This document shows positions 31,607 to 43,219 of a stretch of DNA of 64,000 nucleotides, in pieces. Position 1 is the stretch's first letter. Every line of letters starts with the position of its first letter. Position numbers and translations under genes: made by a program. Source of the stretch: Poseidonibacter lekithochrous (GTDB lineage: Bacteria; Campylobacterota; Campylobacteria; Campylobacterales; Arcobacteraceae); the NCBI RefSeq assembly GCF_013283835.1, contig NZ_CP054052.1:2046001-2110000 (forward strand), in the 5' to 3' direction. The notes under the pieces were generated by a model, which saw only the letters and a program-made list of their open reading frames with translations, did no database searches and had not been told where the DNA came from.

Positions 31607-32248
31607 GTGAAAAAGAAAAATCATATTAAGAAAATCTCAAACTATGCTATGGTTGGAGGATTAGGTGCTATTCTAGTTTCAGGACTAGTAGGATGTGAAG
31701 ATAAATCAAATAATCAACAAAACTTTCAACAAAGTGATGCTTTTGCAAGTGCTGCTCAAAAAGAAGGTGCATTTGTAATTATTGAAGAATCAGCTGATGG
31801 AAGATATGCAATTGCAGATGAGTTCCCATCTTCTAAAACTACAATCGTACTAAGAAAACCAGATGGTTCAGAAAGAATCCTTGCAAAAGATGAAATCGAT
31901 GCTTTAGTAAAAGCAGAAGAAGTGAAAATCGATAATGGTACATCACCTCTTACAAATCCAGAAGCAGAAGTAAGTAATGGAGGAATGGGACTTGGTGGAG
32001 TTCTATTATCATCTATTGCAGGAGCTATGATTGGATCATGGTTAGGTAATAAATTATTCAATAATCAAAACTACCAAAACCAAAGAAAAACTCAATATAA
32101 AAGCCCACAAACATATAGTAAATCTCAAAGTTCTTTTTCAAAAGCAAAAAGTTCAGCAAACAAAACATCTTCTAGTAAAAAAAGCGGATTCTTTGGAAGT
32201 AAATCATCATCTACTCCAAAAAAATCTGGTTCTTTCTTCGGTGGTTAA
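31607..32248 (+). CDS. UPF0323 lipoprotein
   Basis: This 213-residue protein starts with GTG at 31607. A lipoprotein signal peptide ends SGLVGCEDKS with the lipid-accepting Cys near residue 30. A folded region follows (EGAFVIIEESADGRYAIADEFPSS), then a glycine-rich hydrophobic stretch (GGVLLSSIAGAMIGSWLGNKLF, about 125-146). The tail is rich in Ser, Lys, Gln and Gly and ends SGSFFGG. It matches the UPF0323/YgiB-like lipoproteins known in Helicobacter and relatives. The glutathionylspermidine-synthase-like gene follows by three bases, the same ygiB-ygiC pairing seen in enterobacteria. Function is not known. Confidence 0.85.
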   Translation: MKKKNHIKKISNYAMVGGLGAILVSGLVGCEDKSNNQQNFQQSDAFASAAQKEGAFVIIEESADGRYAIADEFPSSKTTIVLRKPDGSERILAKDEIDALVKAEEVKIDNGTSPLTNPEAEVSNGGMGLGGVLLSSIAGAMIGSWLGNKLFNNQNYQNQRKTQYKSPQTYSKSQSSFSKAKSSANKTSSSKKSGFFGSKSSSTPKKSGSFFGG

Positions 32249-32251
32249 TAG

Positions 32252-33430
32252 ATGAATTTATTAAAATTACAACCATTAACAGATGAATATTTAGAATCTA
32301 TTGGATTTGTATGGCATACAGATGAAGACAATTCATCGTATGTAGCAGATGAAGTAGTAGAAATTTCTGAAGAAGAAGCAGACGCATATTATGAAGCTAC
32401 AAACGAACTATATGATATGTTCTGTGAAGCTGGAGAATACGTAGTTGAAAACGATTTATTCCATGATTTAAATATTCCATTTAACTTAGTAGAAATAATC
32501 AAAGAATCATGGGAAAACGATGTTCATTGGCATTTATATTCAAGATTTGATTTAGCAGGTGGACTTGATGGTAAACCTATTAAACTAATTGAATTTAATG
32601 CAGATACACCTACTTCATTATTTGAAACAGCTGTAATTCAATGGGCATTATTAAAAGCAAACGGATTAGATGAAGCATCACAATTCAATAATCTTTATGA
32701 AGGACTAAAAGAGAACTTCAAAAGAATTATTACTCTTGATTCAGAAATTGAAAAATTTGATGAGTATTATGAAAAACTAGGATGGAAGATTTTATTCTCT
32801 TCTATTTCTTCTTCAAGCGAAGATATTAATACTACAAAACTTTTACAACATATTGCAGATGAAGCAGGATTTAATACTGACTTTGAATATATGGAAAATG
32901 TAGAGTTTGCTGATGAAGGTATTTTTGCAAATGAACAAAGTTTTGAATTCTGGTTCAAACTAATTCCTTGGGAAGATATTGCAATTGATGAGAGTGAATT
33001 AGCTCTAATCTTAGCAGAAATCATCAAAGAGAAAAAAGCTATTATTTTCAATCCTGCATATACTTTAATGTTCCAATCAAAAGGATTTATGAAAGTATTA
33101 TGGGATTTATACCCAAATCATCCACTATTATTAGAAACTTCGTTTGAGCCTTTAGAAGGTAAAAAACAAGTTGAGAAAAGATGTTTTGGTAGAGAAGGTG
33201 CCAACACAAAAATCATTAATGAAGATGGTTCTATTGATGTTGAAACTGATGGAGTTTATGAAGGTCATAAAGCAATCTATCAAGAATATGTAGAGTTAAA
33301 TACAGATGCCAATGGTGTTACTTACCAAGCTGGTATTTTCTACGCTTTTGAAGCTTGTGGACTTGGATTTAGAAGAGGTGAAAAAATTCTAAACAACATG
33401 TCTAAATTTGTAGGACATATCGTAAAATAA
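32252..33430 (+). CDS. Glutathionylspermidine synthase-like ATP-grasp protein (YgiC type)
   Basis: This 392-residue protein has the fold of the ATP-grasp C-terminal half of glutathionylspermidine synthase, with no amidase domain. Motifs: RFDLAGGLDGKPIKLIEFNADTP with catalytic Asp/Asn/Glu residues near 110-135, ELALILAEIIKEKKAIIFNPAYT, and KRCFGREGANTKI near the ATP site. Enterobacterial YgiC homologs are of unclear substrate but would ligate an amine to a peptide carboxyl group with ATP. It is 3 bases after the UPF0323 lipoprotein, in a conserved pair. A hairpin terminator follows. Substrate unknown. Confidence 0.85.
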   Translation: MNLLKLQPLTDEYLESIGFVWHTDEDNSSYVADEVVEISEEEADAYYEATNELYDMFCEAGEYVVENDLFHDLNIPFNLVEIIKESWENDVHWHLYSRFDLAGGLDGKPIKLIEFNADTPTSLFETAVIQWALLKANGLDEASQFNNLYEGLKENFKRIITLDSEIEKFDEYYEKLGWKILFSSISSSSEDINTTKLLQHIADEAGFNTDFEYMENVEFADEGIFANEQSFEFWFKLIPWEDIAIDESELALILAEIIKEKKAIIFNPAYTLMFQSKGFMKVLWDLYPNHPLLLETSFEPLEGKKQVEKRCFGREGANTKIINEDGSIDVETDGVYEGHKAIYQEYVELNTDANGVTYQAGIFYAFEACGLGFRRGEKILNNMSKFVGHIVK

Positions 33431-33474: not shown

Positions 33475-35496
33475 CTATTTAGATAATTTCACTTTTCCAG
33501 CCATTGTCATAGCTGTTCCATTTTCCCCACCTGCTGATACAATTGAAGGAACATTATCTCCATCTGCATTAGAATCATTTAAATCATTTGCTTTTACAAA
33601 CTCTCCAGAATCTAATAACCATTCAGCTAATTGAGCACCCTCGTTTAACTTATTACCATTAACAACTAATTGGAACCAAGAAGTAAATCTTTGTGTTAAG
33701 TTTTGAAGTTCTAGTGCACTTTCTTTTTCAGCACCTTCATTTTTAAGATGATTAATAGCATCTCTTAATCCACCACTAACTGCTGCAATTGAATAAGGAG
33801 TATACTCTTTTGAAGCATCTACGTAAGTACCGATATTTTTATCAAACATATTTTTTTCAATAGCAAGTACTAAAGCTCTAGCTTCATCTCTATAGTTTTC
33901 AGATTTTGTAGCTAAATATGCTGCTGTTAAACCTCTAACAACTGCAAATTGAGTACCTACAGATTTTCCAGATTTTGAAGCTTTTGCAATATCATAAGTA
34001 TTAGCGTATAAACCATCTTTACCTTTTAGTTTAGATACTAAGAAATCAGCTTGAGTTTTAATAAGACTTAATGCCTCTTTACCTTGTGCAGATTCTAAAG
34101 ACTTAGCACCATCAGCAGAACCATATCCAACAGGAAGTGCATCAATTGCTCTTTGGAAGATTCTTAAAGCTTCAATAGAATAAGCAGCATCATAAGTAGT
34201 AACTGTTGAACCTTTTTTACCATTGTAAGTATCTACTAACGTTCCAGCTTTTTTATCAAAGTGAATAGTTGAGATATTTTCAAACATTAAGTTTTGAACA
34301 TTTGCTGCAACTGAAAATGCATCATCAGCTTTAATATCATTTGATCTATTTGAATCAGTATTTTTCTTTGGAGCATTTTTGAAAGGCTCACCATCAAATA
34401 CACTTAAAAATGCAGGGTTTTGATTAGCATTGTTTACTCTTTGGTCAGAATATGCGTAGAACTCTGAGATTGGCCATAATACTTGCCATGTATCTCTTAA
34501 TGAAGATTTTGAATCTGTTACTTTTAAAGAAGCAATAGATTTTGTTCCATTTGCCTCTCCTTCTGTAACTGCAACTTTATGTGCAAACCATACAGGTTTA
34601 CTTGCATCATAAGAAGGAGTAAATTTAGTATTTAAATTCTTACCATCAAATCCAAGTTTCTCTTGCATAAATAAGATTCTCTCCCAAGCAAGTTCTGTTA
34701 AAATAGCACCATTTACACCATCAGCAGAAGATACCCCAAGAGCGTGTTTACCATCATGATCCATAGTTGAACTTGTAGCTTCTACTTCTTCATCATTTTC
34801 TATTACGTGCATTCCACCTAAGAAATCCTGAGCCCACATAGTGTCTTTTAATAAAGCAGCACCAAATGCAGCAGCATTAAATGTTTTATCCATTCCAGAG
34901 TCTTGCCAAGCTAGTGTTTTATAATCTCTTAAATAAGCAGGAACAGCAGTTTTAATAACAATCTCTTTCCCATCTTTATATACAACTACTTCGTCATTAT
35001 TAACAATAGTCATATCAGGTTTTTGTGCTAATTCAGGATTACCTGCAATATATGGAAGTGCAGTTGGGTGCATATTTAGAGGTAAAATTGAAGGATCATT
35101 TCCAGTTACTTGTGCAAACTTAATAAATCTTTTTGCAAGTGAAGTCATATCCCCACCTCTTTTAGCATTTAATAATCCATTTACTAAATGAGGTCCCATT
35201 TTTGATTGATAGTTTAAAGCATACATTGCTTCTTCTGAATACTCGTAAGATTCAATACCCGCAGTATAATCAAATTGAGTTGGTTGGTTAATCGCATTTG
35301 GATCAAGAGTATCTAAATCTAATCCAAGTCCTTCAGCCATTGGCTCACCAGAAAGTTCAAATTCTGTATAAGCAAGCATTGCTCCTGCTGTGTTAAAAGT
35401 CTTATCAACTACTTTAGTTTTTGTATCTTTGTAGTCAGCATAAACAGAAGTTGCAAGTAAAGATGCAATAACTGAAATCTTAATAAATTTTTTCAT
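33475..35496 (-). CDS. 673-residue exported protein of unknown function with Fur-like promoter sites
   Basis: I recognise no named family. A signal peptide (MKKFIKISVIASLLATSVYA) ends after Ala20; the mature protein is large, soluble and mostly helical, with Asp, Ala and Asn-rich loops. It shows an acidic tail (NDLNDSNADGDNVP). A GMHVIE segment at 228-233 fits the GxHxxE pattern of imelysin/EfeO-type iron-associated proteins, but the rest does not obviously align. The C-terminal half (about 440-630) has repeated helix pairs that look like tetratricopeptide or six-hairpin glycosidase-like packing (EALRIFQRAIDALP, FAVVRGLTAAYLATKSENYRDEA). Two Fur-box-like sites precede the gene, and it is divergent from a cytochrome operon. 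Confidence 0.85.
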   Translation of the reverse strand: MKKFIKISVIASLLATSVYADYKDTKTKVVDKTFNTAGAMLAYTEFELSGEPMAEGLGLDLDTLDPNAINQPTQFDYTAGIESYEYSEEAMYALNYQSKMGPHLVNGLLNAKRGGDMTSLAKRFIKFAQVTGNDPSILPLNMHPTALPYIAGNPELAQKPDMTIVNNDEVVVYKDGKEIVIKTAVPAYLRDYKTLAWQDSGMDKTFNAAAFGAALLKDTMWAQDFLGGMHVIENDEEVEATSSTMDHDGKHALGVSSADGVNGAILTELAWERILFMQEKLGFDGKNLNTKFTPSYDASKPVWFAHKVAVTEGEANGTKSIASLKVTDSKSSLRDTWQVLWPISEFYAYSDQRVNNANQNPAFLSVFDGEPFKNAPKKNTDSNRSNDIKADDAFSVAANVQNLMFENISTIHFDKKAGTLVDTYNGKKGSTVTTYDAAYSIEALRIFQRAIDALPVGYGSADGAKSLESAQGKEALSLIKTQADFLVSKLKGKDGLYANTYDIAKASKSGKSVGTQFAVVRGLTAAYLATKSENYRDEARALVLAIEKNMFDKNIGTYVDASKEYTPYSIAAVSGGLRDAINHLKNEGAEKESALELQNLTQRFTSWFQLVVNGNKLNEGAQLAEWLLDSGEFVKANDLNDSNADGDNVPSIVSAGGENGTAMTMAGKVKLSK

Positions 35497-35520
35497 GTAT
35501 TCCCTTTTTTTAAGTTATTT

Positions 35521-35535
35521 TGAAATTAATTATCA
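35521..35535. promoter_or_regulatory. Second Fur-box-like site
   Basis: TGAAATTAATTATCA matches the 7-1-7 Fur pattern (TGATAAT-N-ATTATCA) at 12 of 14 positions, with the right half perfect. It lies 25 bases upstream of the start of the 673-residue protein gene. Confidence 0.5.
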
Positions 35536-35572
35536 AAATTGTAAAGCAAATTTCCTTAATTATTTATTAAAA

Positions 35573-35587
35573 TGATAACAATTATCA
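35573..35587. promoter_or_regulatory. Fur box between the 673-residue gene and the cytochrome operon
   Basis: TGATAACAATTATCA matches the 7-1-7 Fur consensus at 13 of 14 positions and lies within a perfect 8-3-8 palindrome (35571-35589). The divergent gap is 310 bases (35497-35806), otherwise AT-rich with a weak third copy (35751-35765). It should confer iron-responsive control on one or both flanking units. Confidence 0.75.
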
Positions 35588-35806
35588 TTAATGACTATTT
35601 AGTGACTTTTTTGTTACGTTAAGTTTAAGGATGCTTATTATATGGTACTTACAGAAGAAATAGAAAAAATATAAAATGTCACTTTTTATCAAAAAATACG
35701 ATAAAAATGAGCTTTTTTAATGATTGATTAATTTATTTTTAGATAAATTTGAAAATTAATTATTAAATTTATAATTTTATATTATTCTAAGAATAGAGAT
35801 AAGAAA

Positions 35807-36289
35807 ATGACAAAATACAAATTAATTGAACTTACAACATATATTATGTTCTTAAGTGGTTTCCTACTTTGGGAAGATTTAAATATCACATGGCAAGCTT
35901 ACAAAATAAGTCAAATCTCACATATATTATTCTCACTAACAATTATGAGTTTATTACTAATACCTTTTGTTATATCACATACAAATAAACATAAAAAAAC
36001 AATAGTAAAAACAAAAAAGAGTTATAAAAAAAGAAGACAAACATTCTTAGGTATATTGATAGGATTTTCACTTTTAATATTACTTAGTTCTGGTATTTAT
36101 CTTCTATTATTTGGAAATAGAGGTGGAGATATCTACGGTATTGTTTCAAATCTATTACATTTTTATCTTTCATTTTTATTTATTTTCTTGATTATATATC
36201 ACTCTTATTACTTAGGAAGAAGTGGAAATAAAGAAGATAAAGCAAAACTAAAAAAACTATTTAATAAAGAGGAGAAAAAGACATGTTAA
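35807..36289 (+). CDS. Four-helix membrane protein, probable cytochrome b-like partner of the cytochrome c
   Basis: This 160-residue protein has four hydrophobic helices (about 8-25, 36-57, 80-102 and 113-148) and a basic loop (KTIVKTKKSYKKRRQTF). Histidines in or next to helices (SHI near 39, SHTNKH near 60, LLHFYLSF near 122 and IIYHSYYLG near 138) could ligate b-type heme, as in small membrane quinol dehydrogenases of multiheme cytochromes. It overlaps the cytochrome c gene by 7 bases, so the two are coupled. A Fur-like box lies upstream. The heme role is inferred; it could be another anchor. Confidence 0.7.
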   Translation: MTKYKLIELTTYIMFLSGFLLWEDLNITWQAYKISQISHILFSLTIMSLLLIPFVISHTNKHKKTIVKTKKSYKKRRQTFLGILIGFSLLILLSSGIYLLLFGNRGGDIYGIVSNLLHFYLSFLFIFLIIYHSYYLGRSGNKEDKAKLKKLFNKEEKKTC

Positions 36290-39201
36290 GGTATTTATTT
36301 TTATCACTCTTTTTAATCGTAAATCTATTTGCTCAAAGTAGCTCAAATGCCCTATATATCACAAAAAATCAAGAGTTTATATATACAGCAAACTTAGATG
36401 CAGGCTCTGTTACTAAAACATCTTTAAAAGATGGCGTTGTAATAAATGAAAAAGTATTAGGAAAAGATTTAAGAAGAATTGCTTTTAATAAAAATGAATC
36501 ACAATACGCAGTAACAGATCATGGAAAAAATGTAGTTTATATTATAAATACAAAAGATAATAGCTTAGAAAAAACTATCAAAACTCCATCACAACCCCAT
36601 GCAATCGTATATGATGAAAAGAAAAACAACTATTATGTAACAGCTTTTGAAGCTAACAAAATCATCTCAATTGATGCCAAGAAACTAGAAATAAATCAAG
36701 AAATAAATACACTTGAAACACCAAGAGGTCTTGCTTTAACAAATGATAATAGACTTTTAGTATCTCATGCTTTAATTGGAAAAGTATCTATTTTTAAACT
36801 AATAGAAAATGAAAAAGCAATTGATTCAAAACCAATTACAATTATATCATTACATGAAACACAAAATGAAAAAGAGAGCGTATCCCAAGGACTTCCAAGA
36901 TATTTAGATGATATTGAGATAACTCCAGATGGGAAAGAAGCTTGGCTTCCACATCTTTTATGGAATGTTGACCATGCTTTTCAATTTCAAAGTACTATCT
37001 TTCCAACAATTTCAATTATTGATTTAACTCCATATAATGAAAAAGAGTTAGAAATAAAAAGAAAACATCTTTTTAAAGAGATAAATATTCAAGATAAACT
37101 AAATAAAACATTGATTATTTCAAATCCTTGGGATTTAGTATTCTCACCTTCTGGACATAAAGCTTTTATTACACTAGCAGGAAGTGAAGATTTATTAGTA
37201 ATGGATATTAAGCGTTCAACACAAAATAAAAGAAGAAAATCAAGACAACACAGAATCAGAAAAAAAAGAGCAGGTTCAGGAGCAAGAGCTGTACAAATAT
37301 ATAGACATCTTCCAGGAGCCAATCCTAGAGCTATTGTAATTTCTGAAAATGGTGAAGATTTATATGTACAAAATGCCATGAGTTTGGATTTAACGAAATT
37401 AAACACTGGTGGAAAAGGTACATTTTCAAGAGTAACGATAGAAAAAGACATTTTTGCAAAACTTGTAAAAAATGACCCTTTATCAAAAGAGTTACGAGAA
37501 GGTAAAACAGTATTCAACTTAGGAAATAGTGATAAATATAAAAACAACCCAATAGTTGGGGATTTTTGGATGTCTTGTGCTTCTTGTCACTATGAGGGAT
37601 TTAATAGTACAAATAGATTTATGTTAAAAGATTTTAAAGTTGATAAATACAAAGATGCAGTTGCAGGACATAGAAATTTAGATAGTTTTTTCTCTAAAAA
37701 CTTTATATCTGATTACACAAAAATCATCAAACAAACTCAAGGTGGTTTTGGTGAAGATGGAATCATGGAAGAAAAAGTAGATGGTCAAAAACCAAATAAA
37801 GAAGTAAAACAAATGCTAACTTCACTACATAAATATGTACAAGCTCCTGAGAATTTACCACTTATGTCAACATGGTTGAAACTTGATGATGATAAAAAAA
37901 CAGCTCATAAGTCACAATGGTTAAACTCAGCCTCTTGTAAACAGTGTCACCCTACTATTTACAAACAATGGGCTAACTCTTCTCACGGAACTGCTATGGA
38001 TCATCCATATTATGAATTCCAAGAGAATATTGCAGCCAAAAAAGAAGGAGAAGAGTTCAGAGCCTTTTGTAGAGGATGTCATATGCCGCAACTTTTATTA
38101 ACGGGAAGAGATTCATCTGAATATAAATTTAAAAACAATATGTTTGAAAAAGATGCTATGTCTTTACAAAAAGCTTTAAAAGAAGGCGAAAGTGTAATAG
38201 AAGCAGGAACTGGATGTTTCTTCTGCCATAGAGTTAATAAAGCTAGAAACGCAGGTGGAAATGCGGATTTAAGTATTAATTTAAAAGATAGAGATAAATA
38301 CTTTTTTGAAAATACTTCTAATGAGACTCTAAAATGGGCAAATGAAAAATCTATAAATGCAAATCCAAAAGCACATAAAGACTCATATACAAATAAAGAC
38401 TTATACCAAGATTCACTTTATTGTGGGACTTGTCACAATGAATTTATTCCCGGAACTGGGGTTAAGATAAATGACAACTATGGAGAGTGGTTAGCATCAT
38501 CGTTTAATAATCCAAAAGATAAAACAAAACATAGATCTTGTATAGATTGTCATATGAAAGCAGATATTTCAAGTATTGGAAAAGATGTAGAAGGATTCTC
38601 AACACTTGGTGGAAAACTAAAAAAAGATGTAAAAACACACCACTTTACAGGTGCAAATGATTATTTAGCAGGCTTAAGAAGTGATGAACATAGAAAACTA
38701 TCTATTGATTTATTAAGAATTGCTACAAAACTTGAAGCAAATATAAATGATGATAAATTAACAATTAGAGTAAACAATATACAAGCAGGTCACAAATTCC
38801 CAGGGGGAGCAAGAAGACAAATCTGGTTAGAAATAACTGTAAAAGATAAGTTTGGAAGTGTAGTTTATAAAAATGGACATATGCAAGGAAACAGTGTACC
38901 AAAAGGTGCAAGAGAGTTCAAAAAAGTAGCAGGTGATAAAGATGGAGTTCCAGTAGGATTACATTTTTGGAGATATGAAAAAATGATAAAAGATACTAGA
39001 ATTCCTGCTGATGGATATAGAGATGAAGTATTTGATATACCATCAGATATCACATATCCACTTCAAGTTGAGACAAGACTATTATTTAGAGCCTTCTCTC
39101 CAAAACTAACAGATAAAGTAAGAGATGCCTTTCCTAAAAGAGATATTCCTTATGCACAAGTTGTTGAAATAAATAAACTAGTTAAGAAGTTTGAAAACTA
39201 A
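36283..39201 (+). CDS. Hexaheme cytochrome c with N-terminal beta-propeller
   Basis: This 972-residue exported protein starts with a signal peptide (MLRYLFLSLFLIVNLFAQ). Residues 20 to about 370 are a YncE-like beta-propeller (repeats such as NALYITKNQEFIYTAN and NPRAIVISENGEDLYVQN). The C-terminal part carries six heme-binding CXXCH motifs: CASCH (about 432), CKQCH (552), CRGCH (596), CFFCH (644), CGTCH (714) and CIDCH (753). The last 200 residues lack hemes. A Lys/Arg-rich insert (about 310-330) interrupts the propeller. Such proteins are periplasmic electron carriers or reductases; the substrate is unknown. The propeller fusion resembles proteins of the methylamine-dehydrogenase type. A Fur box controls the operon. 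Confidence 0.88.
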   Translation: MLRYLFLSLFLIVNLFAQSSSNALYITKNQEFIYTANLDAGSVTKTSLKDGVVINEKVLGKDLRRIAFNKNESQYAVTDHGKNVVYIINTKDNSLEKTIKTPSQPHAIVYDEKKNNYYVTAFEANKIISIDAKKLEINQEINTLETPRGLALTNDNRLLVSHALIGKVSIFKLIENEKAIDSKPITIISLHETQNEKESVSQGLPRYLDDIEITPDGKEAWLPHLLWNVDHAFQFQSTIFPTISIIDLTPYNEKELEIKRKHLFKEINIQDKLNKTLIISNPWDLVFSPSGHKAFITLAGSEDLLVMDIKRSTQNKRRKSRQHRIRKKRAGSGARAVQIYRHLPGANPRAIVISENGEDLYVQNAMSLDLTKLNTGGKGTFSRVTIEKDIFAKLVKNDPLSKELREGKTVFNLGNSDKYKNNPIVGDFWMSCASCHYEGFNSTNRFMLKDFKVDKYKDAVAGHRNLDSFFSKNFISDYTKIIKQTQGGFGEDGIMEEKVDGQKPNKEVKQMLTSLHKYVQAPENLPLMSTWLKLDDDKKTAHKSQWLNSASCKQCHPTIYKQWANSSHGTAMDHPYYEFQENIAAKKEGEEFRAFCRGCHMPQLLLTGRDSSEYKFKNNMFEKDAMSLQKALKEGESVIEAGTGCFFCHRVNKARNAGGNADLSINLKDRDKYFFENTSNETLKWANEKSINANPKAHKDSYTNKDLYQDSLYCGTCHNEFIPGTGVKINDNYGEWLASSFNNPKDKTKHRSCIDCHMKADISSIGKDVEGFSTLGGKLKKDVKTHHFTGANDYLAGLRSDEHRKLSIDLLRIATKLEANINDDKLTIRVNNIQAGHKFPGGARRQIWLEITVKDKFGSVVYKNGHMQGNSVPKGAREFKKVAGDKDGVPVGLHFWRYEKMIKDTRIPADGYRDEVFDIPSDITYPLQVETRLLFRAFSPKLTDKVRDAFPKRDIPYAQVVEINKLVKKFEN

Positions 39202-39220
39202 AGTTAAAGCTTTAGTTTTC
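39193..39220. terminator. Bidirectional terminator between cytochrome and membrane glycosyltransferase genes
   Basis: Perfect 11-bp arms GAAAACTAAAG (39193-39203) and CTTTAGTTTTC (39210-39220) with a 6-base loop, between convergent genes. The stem covers the stop codons of both. Confidence 0.75.
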
Positions 39221-40432
39221 AATCAAATAATAATCCCTCTCCCCTAAAAATCTTCCTTTAAAAACTTTGTACTTTTTCTCTTTTGGTCTAATAGTAGTAA
39301 TCATATAAACCTTTTTATTTTGAAAATAATACTTTGAAGAGTTAATATAATATTTATCAAATACTCTATTTTTAATGCTTGCTCTTAGTATTTCTATACT
39401 TCTATTAGAAATAACAATCTTTTTTTCATCTTTTATTTCTGTGATTATTTGATCAATTGGTGAGTGTTTATTTGTGTAAGTGAAAAGAATATAGATATTA
39501 AATACAAAAATAGTGATAATAATCTTATGATAGTTTATTAAAACAGATGAAAGTAAAATAGAAGCAAAAATACTTAAAGGCACTAAATGTCGCATATTTT
39601 CTGGATTCTGAGCAAATATTAACCATAAAAAATATGAAATAAATAGTACTAATATAAGTAAAAATTTCTTATCAAATTTGATGAAAACTAAAGGCAATAA
39701 AATATAAACAATATTTTCATATCTAAAGATATTTGAAGCCCAAGAAATATCACTATTTTGCCCAGTACCCCAAAGTGTAAAATGACCAAATATAAATCTT
39801 TTTGCTTCATATATAAATAACATACCATTAGATAAAAATATATAAAACAAAAATATAAATGCCATAAAAAAGAAAGCTATTAATATATCTTTTAAAGCAT
39901 CTTTTTTGAAAAAATATATATAAACTAAACCTACAATATAAAAAATTAAATAAGAAGGTCTAGCAAAAAAAGCAATTGAGAATATAACTCCACTGCCTTT
40001 ATATTTTCCTACTTCAAAAAAATAAAGCCCTAAAAAGAAAAAGAATAAACCAACACTTTCACTTAACATACTCAAAGAGATATTTAATATATATACAGAA
40101 GAGATAGTAAGTAAAAAAGCTACGAAGGCAGTTTTTTCATCTTTTAGTTTAGCTACATAAGCAAATACTACTAAAGGGGTTAAAGCCCCACAAAGTGCGG
40201 TTAATATAAATAAAGACTCTTTGTTATCATTCAAAAATATATTTAAAAACTTACCCATAAGTACAATGCTTACGTAACCGGGGAAATGTGGGGAAAAGTC
40301 TATAATAGAGAAATTATCAATTCCCTTTGCTAAGAAAAAAGAATCATCATTATAAAAAGATGAAGGATAAGTAAAAATATAACAAACATAGATTATTGTA
40401 ATTATGCTTGTTAATATTTTGTAGAAGTTCAT
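39212..40432 (-). CDS. GT-C-type polytopic membrane protein (glycosyltransferase 39-like)
   Basis: This 406-residue protein has about 9-11 transmembrane helices with an early acidic pair in FYNDDSFFLAKG (about 26-37) that matches the first-loop motif of PMT/ArnT-like GT-C glycosyltransferases. The C-terminal 70 residues form a soluble tail with basic residues. Such enzymes transfer sugars from polyprenyl phosphate to lipids or proteins in the periplasm. It is the last gene of the FTR1 operon (TAATG overlap with the gene upstream), an odd combination. GT-C assignment is moderate; the acceptor and donor are unknown. Confidence 0.7.
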   Translation of the reverse strand: MNFYKILTSIITIIYVCYIFTYPSSFYNDDSFFLAKGIDNFSIIDFSPHFPGYVSIVLMGKFLNIFLNDNKESLFILTALCGALTPLVVFAYVAKLKDEKTAFVAFLLTISSVYILNISLSMLSESVGLFFFFLGLYFFEVGKYKGSGVIFSIAFFARPSYLIFYIVGLVYIYFFKKDALKDILIAFFFMAFIFLFYIFLSNGMLFIYEAKRFIFGHFTLWGTGQNSDISWASNIFRYENIVYILLPLVFIKFDKKFLLILVLFISYFLWLIFAQNPENMRHLVPLSIFASILLSSVLINYHKIIITIFVFNIYILFTYTNKHSPIDQIITEIKDEKKIVISNRSIEILRASIKNRVFDKYYINSSKYYFQNKKVYMITTIRPKEKKYKVFKGRFLGERDYYLIEN

Positions 40433-41001
40433 TATAAAGATTGAATTATATCTACAATGATTTTTTGGTTTTTAATATATTCTTCTTTGTTCGCAGGTTT
40501 TGCCCCAACTCCAAAAAGTCCCGGATTTCCAATTGAAAGCATACAAGCTTTAATAGCAGATTTTAGTTTTTTATTTGTATTGTCATCTAAACTAACTGCT
40601 AATAATTCATAAAATTTATTTGCTTTTGCTAACATAACTTTAGCAACATTGAATGTTTTTATATTTTCTAAACCACCAGAGATTCTTCTTTGAACTTCAG
40701 CCGCCAAAGATAATTCTAAACTTTTAACAATCTGTTTTTTATCTTTATTTTCTATGGCATTTTCTAGTGAAGTATGAAGTTTTGAAATGAAAGTATCATT
40801 TAAATATTTATAGTTTTTTTCATACTTAATAAATACCTTTTTTGCTGTATCAAAATCATCTGCATTAATAGCTTTCATAATGGCTTCTTTTGAGTCAATT
40901 GTCAGCTCCTTTCCAGCAGCTGCATACGAATAAGCATATAAGTTAGAGGAACCTATAAATAACAAAGCCAAAAATAAAACTATTTTATGTACAAATTTCA
41001 T
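40432..41001 (-). CDS. Exported helical protein in FTR1 operon
   Basis: This 189-residue protein has a signal peptide (KIVLFLALLFIGSSNLYAYS). The mature part is mostly helical with repeated Lys/Ala-rich helices such as KEAIMKAINADDFDTAKKVF and VKSLELSLAAEVQRRISGGLENIK. By eye it resembles the periplasmic helical region that precedes FTR1 permease domains in some longer FTR1-family proteins, which would make it a detached FTR1 accessory or iron-binding subunit. That relation is inference and no metal motif is obvious. It is 18 bases after the FAD enzyme and overlaps the next gene by one base. Confidence 0.7.
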   Translation of the reverse strand: MKFVHKIVLFLALLFIGSSNLYAYSYAAAGKELTIDSKEAIMKAINADDFDTAKKVFIKYEKNYKYLNDTFISKLHTSLENAIENKDKKQIVKSLELSLAAEVQRRISGGLENIKTFNVAKVMLAKANKFYELLAVSLDDNTNKKLKSAIKACMLSIGNPGLFGVGAKPANKEEYIKNQKIIVDIIQSL

Positions 41002-41019
41002 GTTAATCCTTTTTTTGTG

Positions 41020-42414
41020 TTAAGCAACACTTTTTGTTTCTATTACTGTTTTTTCATTTCTATGGTTATATATTTTTTCTTTTGAAATAAAACTCGTTTT
41101 TAATAACTTTTGAGCAGCCATAAGACCAGTTTCCATTGCTGTATCTAAGAAAATATATCTGTAAGTACCTTGACGTCCTGCCATAATCAGATTTTCAAAC
41201 TTATTTAAATAAGTAATCGTTTTATCTCTTTTTTCATTGTATTCTACATCCATAAGTGTATAAGCGTGTTCCGTTGTAAATGAAAAATAGTCTACAATTT
41301 TATCTTCAATATCAAATTTTAATTTATTTAAATCTTTTTTTACAATTTCTAATAATTCATCTTCATTCATATCCCAAATCTTATCACCTTTATTACAAGG
41401 AATCTCTAACATAATTGAGCTTTTACCTTTTGGAGACATAGAAGGTGATCTTCTTTTTGGTTCTTGAATTCTTGTAGGTAATAAATCAAAATCACTTACA
41501 TATTGCCAAGTATGAGGTGAGAAGTCTTCAATATCTAAACCAATACATAAAAATCTTAAAGACCTAAACTTTAGTTTTGAATCAAAACCTAGTTTTAAAG
41601 ACATCTCATTTAATGGCATTGTTGAGATTATATTATCAGCGAAATATTCATTATCTTTTGTTTTTACTGATTTGATTTTAGATTCATCGTATGTAAATTC
41701 ACTTGCTTGAGCATTAGTGATTATAACTCCACCTAAATCTTCAAATCTTTTTGCCATTTTTATAGGAAGTGAACCAAATCCATATTTTGGATATCTATAA
41801 CTTTTGGCATAAGTTCTTGCAGTTTTTTTGTTTTTAAACAAAAGTTTCTTAGCTACATCTTTTAAATCCACAAGAGAAATTCTCTGCCCTGCCCAATCAG
41901 CACTTAGGTATTTGGGTTTGATTCCCCAAAGCTTTTCTGTATATGGACCAAAGAAGTTTTTGTATAAGGTCTTACCAAATCTAGAAGTAATCCATGTTTT
42001 AAAGTTTTTATCATTTGGTTTTGTCATTTTTAATACAATTTTCAAAGTATCTATAAAAGCCCCAGCCAATAAAGAAATGGGAGCAACTTTTAATAAATTC
42101 TTAATATTTAATGGATATTCATACATTCTATTTTTATGTAAAATCACAGAACTTCTTTGAGCTACTAAAAGCTCATCGCGCAATACATCTTCTACAAAAT
42201 CTAAAAGATATTCATTGTTCGTAATAAATCTATGTCCACCATAATCAAATCTATACTCTTCATCATTTGTTTTTAGAACTTCAGTTTTACACTGTCCACC
42301 AACAACATCTTCTTTTTCAAGAAGAACTACACTTTTCCCAGAGCTAGCAAGTTCAATTCCAGCCATAAGACCGGCAACTCCCCCACCTATTATAATTACA
42401 TCACTATTTTGCAT
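41020..42414 (-). CDS. FAD-dependent amine oxidase-like protein
   Basis: This 464-residue flavoprotein begins with a Rossmann dinucleotide motif (DVIIIGGGVAGLMAGIELASSG) followed by EKEDVVGGQCKTE and YDYGGHRFITN-type segments. The middle has FGPYTEKLWGIKPKYLSADWAGQRISL, a motif shared with FAD oxidoreductases in polysaccharide clusters and with protoporphyrinogen-oxidase-like proteins. The C-terminal FAD contact is GRQGTYRYIFLDTAMETG. It resembles UDP-galactopyranose mutase in layout but lacks its usual nucleotide-sugar signature, so I do not call it Glf. Its start overlaps the FTR1 gene end by 11 bases. Substrate unknown; a sugar or lipid-linked sugar is possible given the membrane glycosyltransferase downstream. 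Confidence 0.82.
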   Translation of the reverse strand: MQNSDVIIIGGGVAGLMAGIELASSGKSVVLLEKEDVVGGQCKTEVLKTNDEEYRFDYGGHRFITNNEYLLDFVEDVLRDELLVAQRSSVILHKNRMYEYPLNIKNLLKVAPISLLAGAFIDTLKIVLKMTKPNDKNFKTWITSRFGKTLYKNFFGPYTEKLWGIKPKYLSADWAGQRISLVDLKDVAKKLLFKNKKTARTYAKSYRYPKYGFGSLPIKMAKRFEDLGGVIITNAQASEFTYDESKIKSVKTKDNEYFADNIISTMPLNEMSLKLGFDSKLKFRSLRFLCIGLDIEDFSPHTWQYVSDFDLLPTRIQEPKRRSPSMSPKGKSSIMLEIPCNKGDKIWDMNEDELLEIVKKDLNKLKFDIEDKIVDYFSFTTEHAYTLMDVEYNEKRDKTITYLNKFENLIMAGRQGTYRYIFLDTAMETGLMAAQKLLKTSFISKEKIYNHRNEKTVIETKSVA

Positions 42415-43219
42415 AAGAGTATGTTTTTCTCCATAATAAAATAGCTGTTGACATATAAACAGCCCAAGAAATTAAGTGCATGAATGTTGGTGATGAGTTA
42501 TAACCAAACAGTGCTCGTAAGAATGTTCCAAATAATCCTCTATCATCTAATATAAATGAAATATCATAAACTACTGGAATAAAAGTAGGAAGTAAATCTG
42601 CTGCTTGCATCATAGATACAGCACTACCAAATAGTCCCCCTGCAATTATAAGAATCAATAATCCTGTATATTTGAAAAATGATTTGATTGGAATATTTTT
42701 TGCACCCCTCATAAGGAAATATACTAAAACAATAGATAATACAAGTCCAGAAAAAGCTCCTATTAATCCATCTTCAAGAGTGATACTTTCACTAAAACTA
42801 AGTGAAGAGAAAAATAACACCGTTTCAAACCCTTCTCTTAATACTGCTAAAAATGCTAAAAATACCATTCCTGCGATATTACCTGCTGTTACAAGTTTTT
42901 TAATATTTTCTTCAATTTCACCTTTTATTTGTTTAGATTGATTTGCCATCCAAACAACCATGTAAGATAAAACAAGTGTTGCAAAAAGTAAAATAAATAT
43001 CATCAAATAATGCTGATATGTTTCATTGTCCATTCCATAAATAACAACTTGAAAAATATATGCAATAATTATAGAAATCACAACACCAATCAATACACCT
43101 AAATAGATAAATTTATTGTATTTTGTTGCTTGTAATTTCCCCAAATAAGAAAGTATTATTCCTACAATTAGAAAAGCTTCAAGACCTTCTCTAAATGTTA
43201 TTAAAAAACTTGCTAACAT
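42404..43219 (-). CDS. FTR1-family iron permease
   Basis: This 271-residue membrane protein has seven transmembrane helices. The two REXXE iron-binding motifs are present: R10-EGLE-14 in the first helix and R128-EGFE-132 in the fourth. These mark the bacterial FTR1/EfeU family of high-affinity iron permeases. In Campylobacter the cFtr1 partner is P19; no P19 gene is seen here, so another periplasmic partner would be needed. Fur-like boxes lie upstream at 43332-43346 and 43359-43373. It heads a four-gene minus-strand operon. Iron uptake is a firm family inference. Confidence 0.92.
   Translation of the reverse strand: MLASFLITFREGLEAFLIVGIILSYLGKLQATKYNKFIYLGVLIGVVISIIIAYIFQVVIYGMDNETYQHYLMIFILLFATLVLSYMVVWMANQSKQIKGEIEENIKKLVTAGNIAGMVFLAFLAVLREGFETVLFFSSLSFSESITLEDGLIGAFSGLVLSIVLVYFLMRGAKNIPIKSFFKYTGLLILIIAGGLFGSAVSMMQAADLLPTFIPVVYDISFILDDRGLFGTFLRALFGYNSSPTFMHLISWAVYMSTAILLWRKTYSYAK

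Follow-up and report, generated by a model that had tools for sequence, protein, structure and literature searches.

Why should a cytochrome gene that is costly in iron stand beside sites resembling Fur boxes? This question was raised by a locus of Poseidonibacter lekithochrous, which was analysed in a window of 64,000 nt (NZ_CP054052.1, assembly GCF_013283835.1, forward strand, 2,046,001-2,110,000). All locus coordinates are counted from window position 1. The locus contains seven genes at 33475-43219: A673 is read leftwards, M-Cyt rightwards, and FTR1-P2-N202-P1 leftwards (43219 to 39212). Its features are as follows:

33475-35496, minus strand: A673, a 673-aa exported protein of an unnamed family, with a predicted alpha/alpha-toroid fold
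35521-35535: second Fur-like site, two mismatches
35573-35587: main palindrome resembling a Fur box, with one mismatch, located 77-91 bp upstream of A673
35807-36289, plus strand: M, a 160-aa four-helix membrane protein with a weak cytochrome b561 match and four conserved His
36283-39201, plus strand: Cyt, a 972-aa cytochrome with a YVTN-type propeller, a MauG/MbnH-like half with one heme, and then a c554/ExtKL-like five-heme module
39212-40432, minus strand: P1, a 406-aa GT-C/PMT_2-like membrane protein
40432-41001, minus strand: N202, a 189-aa exported helical protein
41020-42414, minus strand: P2, a 464-aa FAD protein, PRK07208/UDP-galactopyranose-mutase-like
42404-43219, minus strand: FTR1 iron permease, 271 aa, two RExxE motifs

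The reading frames of A673, M and Cyt (673, 160 and 972 aa) agree with those of an earlier note on this DNA, as do the two Fur-like sites, both of which lie in the divergent gap between A673 and M-Cyt. The same note had placed FTR1 nearby. The permease is indeed present, but it is more than a neighbour, being a member of a cluster that reaches 43219. Clustering of the neighbouring proteins gave seven recurrent families, namely A673, M (~160 aa), FTR1 (~272), P2 (~470), N202 (~190), P1 (~470) and Cyt (~975). The window holds all seven, and FTR1 is therefore part of the unit.

The cluster is kept in Campylobacterota, Gammaproteobacteria and Alphaproteobacteria. The neighbourhood survey of A673 covered the best 80 of 153 loci. 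All seven families were found in 17 of these 80, and seven more had the other six but showed no separate M gene. All genes are on one strand in Photobacterium and Moritella, ordered A673-M-FTR1-P2-N202-P1-Cyt. About seven of the best 80 loci had A673, M and Cyt without FTR1; when the rest of the set was sought in such genomes through N202, it was not found in four of five. Among 100 relatives, A673, full-length Cyt, N202, a close P2 and the same FTR1 all occurred in the same five genomes (G012, G017, G039, G040 and G049). One further relative (G030) had A673 and Cyt only, and another (G009, 86% complete) had only a broken A673.

FTR1 belongs clearly to its family (PF03239, 4e-46, 158 bits against a cut-off of 25), and it is the single FTR1 match in its own genome. 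Its motifs are REGLE and REGFE, and two RExxE motifs were present in all 29 homologues. Scored as EfeU, it reached 200 bits against the cut-off of 255 (NF041756), below both the EfeU and the EfeU/Ftr1 cut-offs. The helper proteins of known FTR1 systems were also sought. DyP/EfeB (PF04261) gave no match in the own genome, with hits in the control genomes. P19 (PF10634) gave no match there either, with a thin control in which the profile hit in Haloferax only. None of the seven cluster proteins matched the imelysin domain in Pfam. For N202, kinship with EfeO/imelysin is not claimed: the Foldseek match to EfeO was very weak (E 0.26), and VIA gave generic helical bundles among which EfeO was not prominent. 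N202 found no family in profile searches. Its predicted structure is a helical bundle (pLDDT 93), and its alignment shows the motifs AYSYAAAGKE and GNPG.FGVG.

Cyt is a six-heme cytochrome c with a beta-propeller, as the earlier note had read it: six CxxCH were counted, and the N-terminus matches YVTN/YncE propellers. Exactly six CxxCH occur in 48 of 48 Cyt sequences (the window and 47 homologues). The C-terminal five-heme module matches NF040886 (4e-15) and PF13435 (1e-5); the former match has 55 bits against 250, so that the curated ExtKL cut-off is not reached. The propeller and the first heme align with a propeller-diheme protein of Anoxybacillus (33% over 555 aa), and the first heme of Cyt pairs with the first heme of that di-heme protein. 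M matched PF01292 (E 1e-3), and its Photobacterium homologue matched DUF4405 (E 1e-3). His39, 58, 118 and 132 of M are conserved in 98-100% of homologues, the pattern that would be expected for a di-heme b-type four-helix protein. In other Campylobacterota and in Alphaproteobacteria M is fused to Cyt (~1120-1136 aa). The own genome also encodes a 605-aa paralogue (L027 1495-3312, C1 about 1,564,000), which consists of M and the five-heme module only and adjoins a di-heme cytochrome c peroxidase/MauG-like gene. This proximity suggests that electrons run from quinol through M-pentaheme units to partners in the periplasm, and the paralogue and the peroxidase-like gene may possibly form a quinol-fed peroxidase. 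The M-pentaheme paralogue was also seen in about ten relatives.

We believe it likely that the cluster takes up iron through FTR1, is repressed by Fur and has a cytochrome arm of its own that is linked to quinone. Under iron shortage, Fur would leave the boxes before A673 and the divergent M-Cyt unit. Iron would then cross the inner membrane through FTR1. M would serve as a quinone-side b-type anchor wired to the five-heme module of Cyt, which would be joined to a propeller bearing the MauG/MbnH-type heme. A673 would be the periplasmic partner of the propeller protein and would present or hold the iron. The cytochrome arm would thus give the one-electron step that is done elsewhere by EfeB/EfeO, P19/FtrB/FtrD or multicopper oxidases, and P2, N202 and P1 perhaps act in glycan or other modification. 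Iron acquisition, which the earlier note had put forward, is well supported by the linkage to FTR1 in three large bacterial groups, by the conserved Fur-like boxes and by the co-occurrence of the genes in relatives.

The direction of the electrons is more tentative. A path from quinol through M and Cyt to Fe(III), and then to FTR1, is slightly favoured over Fe(II) oxidation, though held with less than even confidence. The periplasmic ferric reduction named in the earlier note is plausible, as one of two directions that fit the data. The context of the 605-aa paralogue favours such Fe(III) reduction. FTR1 chemistry and the MauG/MbnH-like origin of the Cyt heme favour the oxidation of Fe(II). 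It is possible, if somewhat doubtful, that Cyt is a ferroxidase which oxidises Fe(II) during the handover to FTR1 and, by way of M, delivers the electron to quinone or some other acceptor. It would then stand in for copper or DyP ferroxidases, with regulation and uptake unchanged. FTR1 permeases are usually paired with an oxidase. The two RExxE motifs of FTR1, the first Cyt heme of an oxidising family, and an own genome with neither P19 (on the thin control) nor DyP detectable all agree with a ferroxidase. However, the M-pentaheme paralogue beside the di-heme peroxidase gene suggests flow out of the quinol pool.

Cyt and M might instead be a respiratory or peroxide-removing branch, with FTR1 a fellow traveller and Fur activating the genes when iron is plentiful. 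The propeller-diheme relatives of the peroxidase/MauG kind, the peroxidase gene next to the paralogue and the iron cost of six hemes would fit such a branch. We regard it as improbable, because the linkage to FTR1 is kept in three groups, the genes are jointly present in relatives, and Fur-like sites head operons that contain FTR1.

A673 gave no sequence match in Pfam, NCBIfam or PDB. Its homologues share 47-80% identity over near full length, and the mean column identity is 63% (45 homologues). They were found in Campylobacterota, Photobacterium, Moritella, Aliivibrio, Pseudovibrio, Endozoicomonas, Motiliproteus, Aeromonas and others. The predicted structure is an alpha/alpha toroid (pLDDT 92, pTM 0.92). 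In VIA the best Z was 21, and AGE-type epimerases, GH105 and GH76 were matched at Z 18-21 over ~300-340 residues with ~10% identity. Although the fold matches, no sequence signature of AGE epimerases, GH105 or GH76 was found in Pfam or NCBIfam. The likeness of the model is one of fold, not of function. Adjacent to A673 in the window, at 31607-33430, are a PRK04081-family protein and a GSP_synth (glutathionylspermidine synthase-like) gene, which occupy the same place in Arcobacter sp. UBA7394 (L055). A673 homologues were also seen on several Aeromonas plasmids; on Aeromonas hydrophila pMCR5_045096 (L172, 8914-10914) the gene lies between transposases, beside glgC, without the cytochrome cluster.

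P2 exceeded its family cut-off (NF005547, 452 bits against 380; PF01593, 6e-25), and P1 matched PF13231 (8e-5) and EpsG (4e-5), both under the curated cut-offs. The folds and families of A673 (a toroid as in sugar enzymes), P2 (UGM-like) and P1 (GT-C-like) could suggest a Fur-regulated surface-glycan system in which the three proteins synthesise or trim a glycan, the iron parts being secondary. This reading has little probability, since A673 and Cyt are also found without P1 and P2, and a toroid fold at ~10% identity tells little about function.

The Fur-like boxes were then weighed. The site at 35573-35587 is TGATAACAATTATCA, with one mismatch against TGATAATNATTATCA, and that at 35521-35535 is TGAAATTAATTATCA, with two against the same pattern. 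The window is not enriched in sites with ≤2 mismatches (2 found, 2.1 expected), and both fall inside one 310-bp gap. Because this count is ordinary, significance is carried by position and conservation. The window site fits the 7-1-7 form of the Fur box; the 19-bp pattern GATAATGATTATCATTATC gave no match in the 64-kb window with ≤3 mismatches allowed. A sigma-70 scan of the gap scored no better than shuffles. The complete own genome (3.57 Mb) has 18 sites with ≤1 mismatch, barely above the 15 of a reversed-pattern control, and it encodes four FUR-family paralogues. Several of these boxes adjoin fur or a Fur-family gene, or TonB-receptor-like, imelysin-like, flavodoxin-like and Fe-S-assembly-like genes, the names being read off translations and not all obtained by search. 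At C1 2.880-2.894 Mb (L124, L135-L138), Fur-like boxes cluster around two of the FUR-family paralogues, and genes that are flavodoxin-like, P-type ATPase-like and porin-like are found there too. A small DUF2325-type protein stands behind Fur-like boxes both in the iron hub of the own genome (L136 1662-1991, by sequence resemblance only) and where the A673 operon of Anoxybacillus begins (L171 7986-8282).

In other genomes the boxes recur. Among 49 loci with A673 beside Cyt or FTR1, which include related species and are not independent, an upstream site with ≤2 mismatches was present in 24 (0.45 expected) and one with ≤3 mismatches in 33 (3.7 expected). Other Campylobacterota have Fur-like sites at a similar distance upstream of A673. 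Both a box match and its upstream conservation in relatives were thus found, and by sequence the locus is a candidate member of the Fur regulon. The reversed-pattern count and the four paralogues could be taken to mean that AT-rich DNA produced the boxes by chance, or that a different member of the FUR family (PerR- or Zur-like) recognises them, but this is very improbable, given that 17 of the 18 genomic sites are intergenic, that dinucleotide shuffles of the gap gave a site with ≤1 mismatch in 0.23% and two sites with ≤2 mismatches in 0.03%, and that conservation across phyla is far above shuffles.

The earlier note's picture of a divergent pair with Fur boxes needs one correction. The sites are in the gap, but the stronger box is ~220 bp upstream of the M gene and far nearer to A673, so that any regulation of the cytochrome genes by Fur would be more indirect than had been supposed. 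Within the window, the FTR1-P2-N202-P1 operon has no Fur-like site with ≤2 mismatches before it. The A673 gene of Aeromonas is solitary and has no box; the M-Cyt-FTR1-P2-N202-P1 operon is found elsewhere, and a weaker site (2-3 mismatches) precedes M there. The two relatives with the closest Cyt (G039 and G049) carry M-Cyt on another contig without a good box, which makes Fur control of M-Cyt in the P. lekithochrous lineage the weakest link. The gene preceding M-Cyt in these two relatives (L006/L007 1-897) reads like a CcsA/CcsBA cytochrome c assembly protein. In the relative G017 (L008 347-1056), the end of the Cyt gene is closely followed by a FUR-family-like gene that has three Fur-like boxes. 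In the favoured reading, bound Fur would repress the cluster, and iron scarcity would lift this repression. Activation of the cytochrome genes by Fur seems unlikely, because FTR1 sits in the same unit.

The window cluster appears to be a mosaic. In the Cyt tree, the window and G049 group with gammaproteobacterial Cyt (SH-aLRT 98), apart from seven fused-type Cyt of Campylobacterota. For A673, P2, FTR1, N202 and P1 of the window, the closest of the matches listed are clearly those of Campylobacterota. M-Cyt (35807-39201) would accordingly be gammaproteobacterial-like and the other five genes of Campylobacterota type. From this, M-Cyt looks to have arrived in a separate acquisition, a possible reason for the unusual divergent layout.

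A simpler form of the locus was found on an Anoxybacillus plasmid, where the gene directly after an A673 homologue (44%) encodes a propeller lipoprotein that ends in a MauG/MbnH-like di-heme part. The sole Fur-like site with ≤2 mismatches in 20 kb precedes this gene group. Zur control of the pair was considered because zinc genes adjoin it, and was rejected: Zur-like boxes stand only at the zinc genes, and the box before the pair is Fur-like. The pair occurs without FTR1, which indicates that FTR1 is not required for the core pair. We suggest, as a speculative and rather unlikely proposal, that A673 and the propeller-heme protein form an ancient metallochaperone-redox pair, shared by Gram-negatives and Gram-positives, in which the MauG/MbnH-like heme would act directly on A673, modifying it or shifting the redox state of toroid-held iron. 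Gram-negatives would have added the five-heme/b-type quinone wire and FTR1, so that FTR1 uptake would be driven with neither copper nor DyP.

By the features tested, the cluster would be a variant of FTR1-based uptake that resembles EfeUOB and FTR1-P19, in which FTR1 has exported redox partners, and is a member of neither. With EfeUOB it shares an FTR1-family permease, exported partners of which one is a heme protein, and Fur-type control. It differs in an FTR1 under the EfeU cut-offs and in the lack of an imelysin match or DyP; in their place are the six-heme propeller cytochrome, the b-type anchor and A673. Campylobacter FTR1-P19 (CJJ81176_1649-1656), FetMP and FtrABCD likewise place FTR1 among several genes of an iron uptake locus that has a Fur box (PMC6083913), whereas the P. 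lekithochrous genome has no P19 match (thin control) and the seven proteins include no ABC permeases or cupredoxin. Compared with MbnH/MauG and propeller-diheme proteins, Cyt has a propeller and a first heme that align to a protein bearing an MbnH-like di-heme end, but five c-type hemes replace the rest, and A673 takes the place of an MbnP-like partner. The five-heme module is like those of the ExtKL/c554 type and differs in its low score, the propeller fusion and the FTR1 context. No sequence relation of the cluster parts to Fur-regulated imelysin/di-heme DUF1111 operons was found.

Fur-regulated iron uptake with periplasmic heme proteins has a precedent (PMC3143127; PMC5511505). In iron-limited Aeromonas salmonicida, two cytochromes c (UniProt A0A6N4CR45 and A0A6N4CND1) reportedly rise and the others fall (PMC9503180), which is suggestive, although neither was mapped to the cluster. 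Papers on iron limitation in Aliivibrio and Aeromonas held no FTR1 or cytochrome entry that could be mapped to it. No published description of the seven-gene cluster was found in the open-access literature, and the set is apparently uncharacterised.

In known FTR1 systems the iron redox step is done by EfeB/EfeO or by P19/FtrABCD-type partners, and in fungi by multicopper oxidases. An FTR1 cluster with a membrane-wired six-heme cytochrome would be a different redox solution, present in marine bacteria and Aeromonas. If true, it would explain why an iron-costly protein is made under iron shortage, and the highly conserved exported A673, nameless in Pfam and NCBIfam, would gain a testable role.
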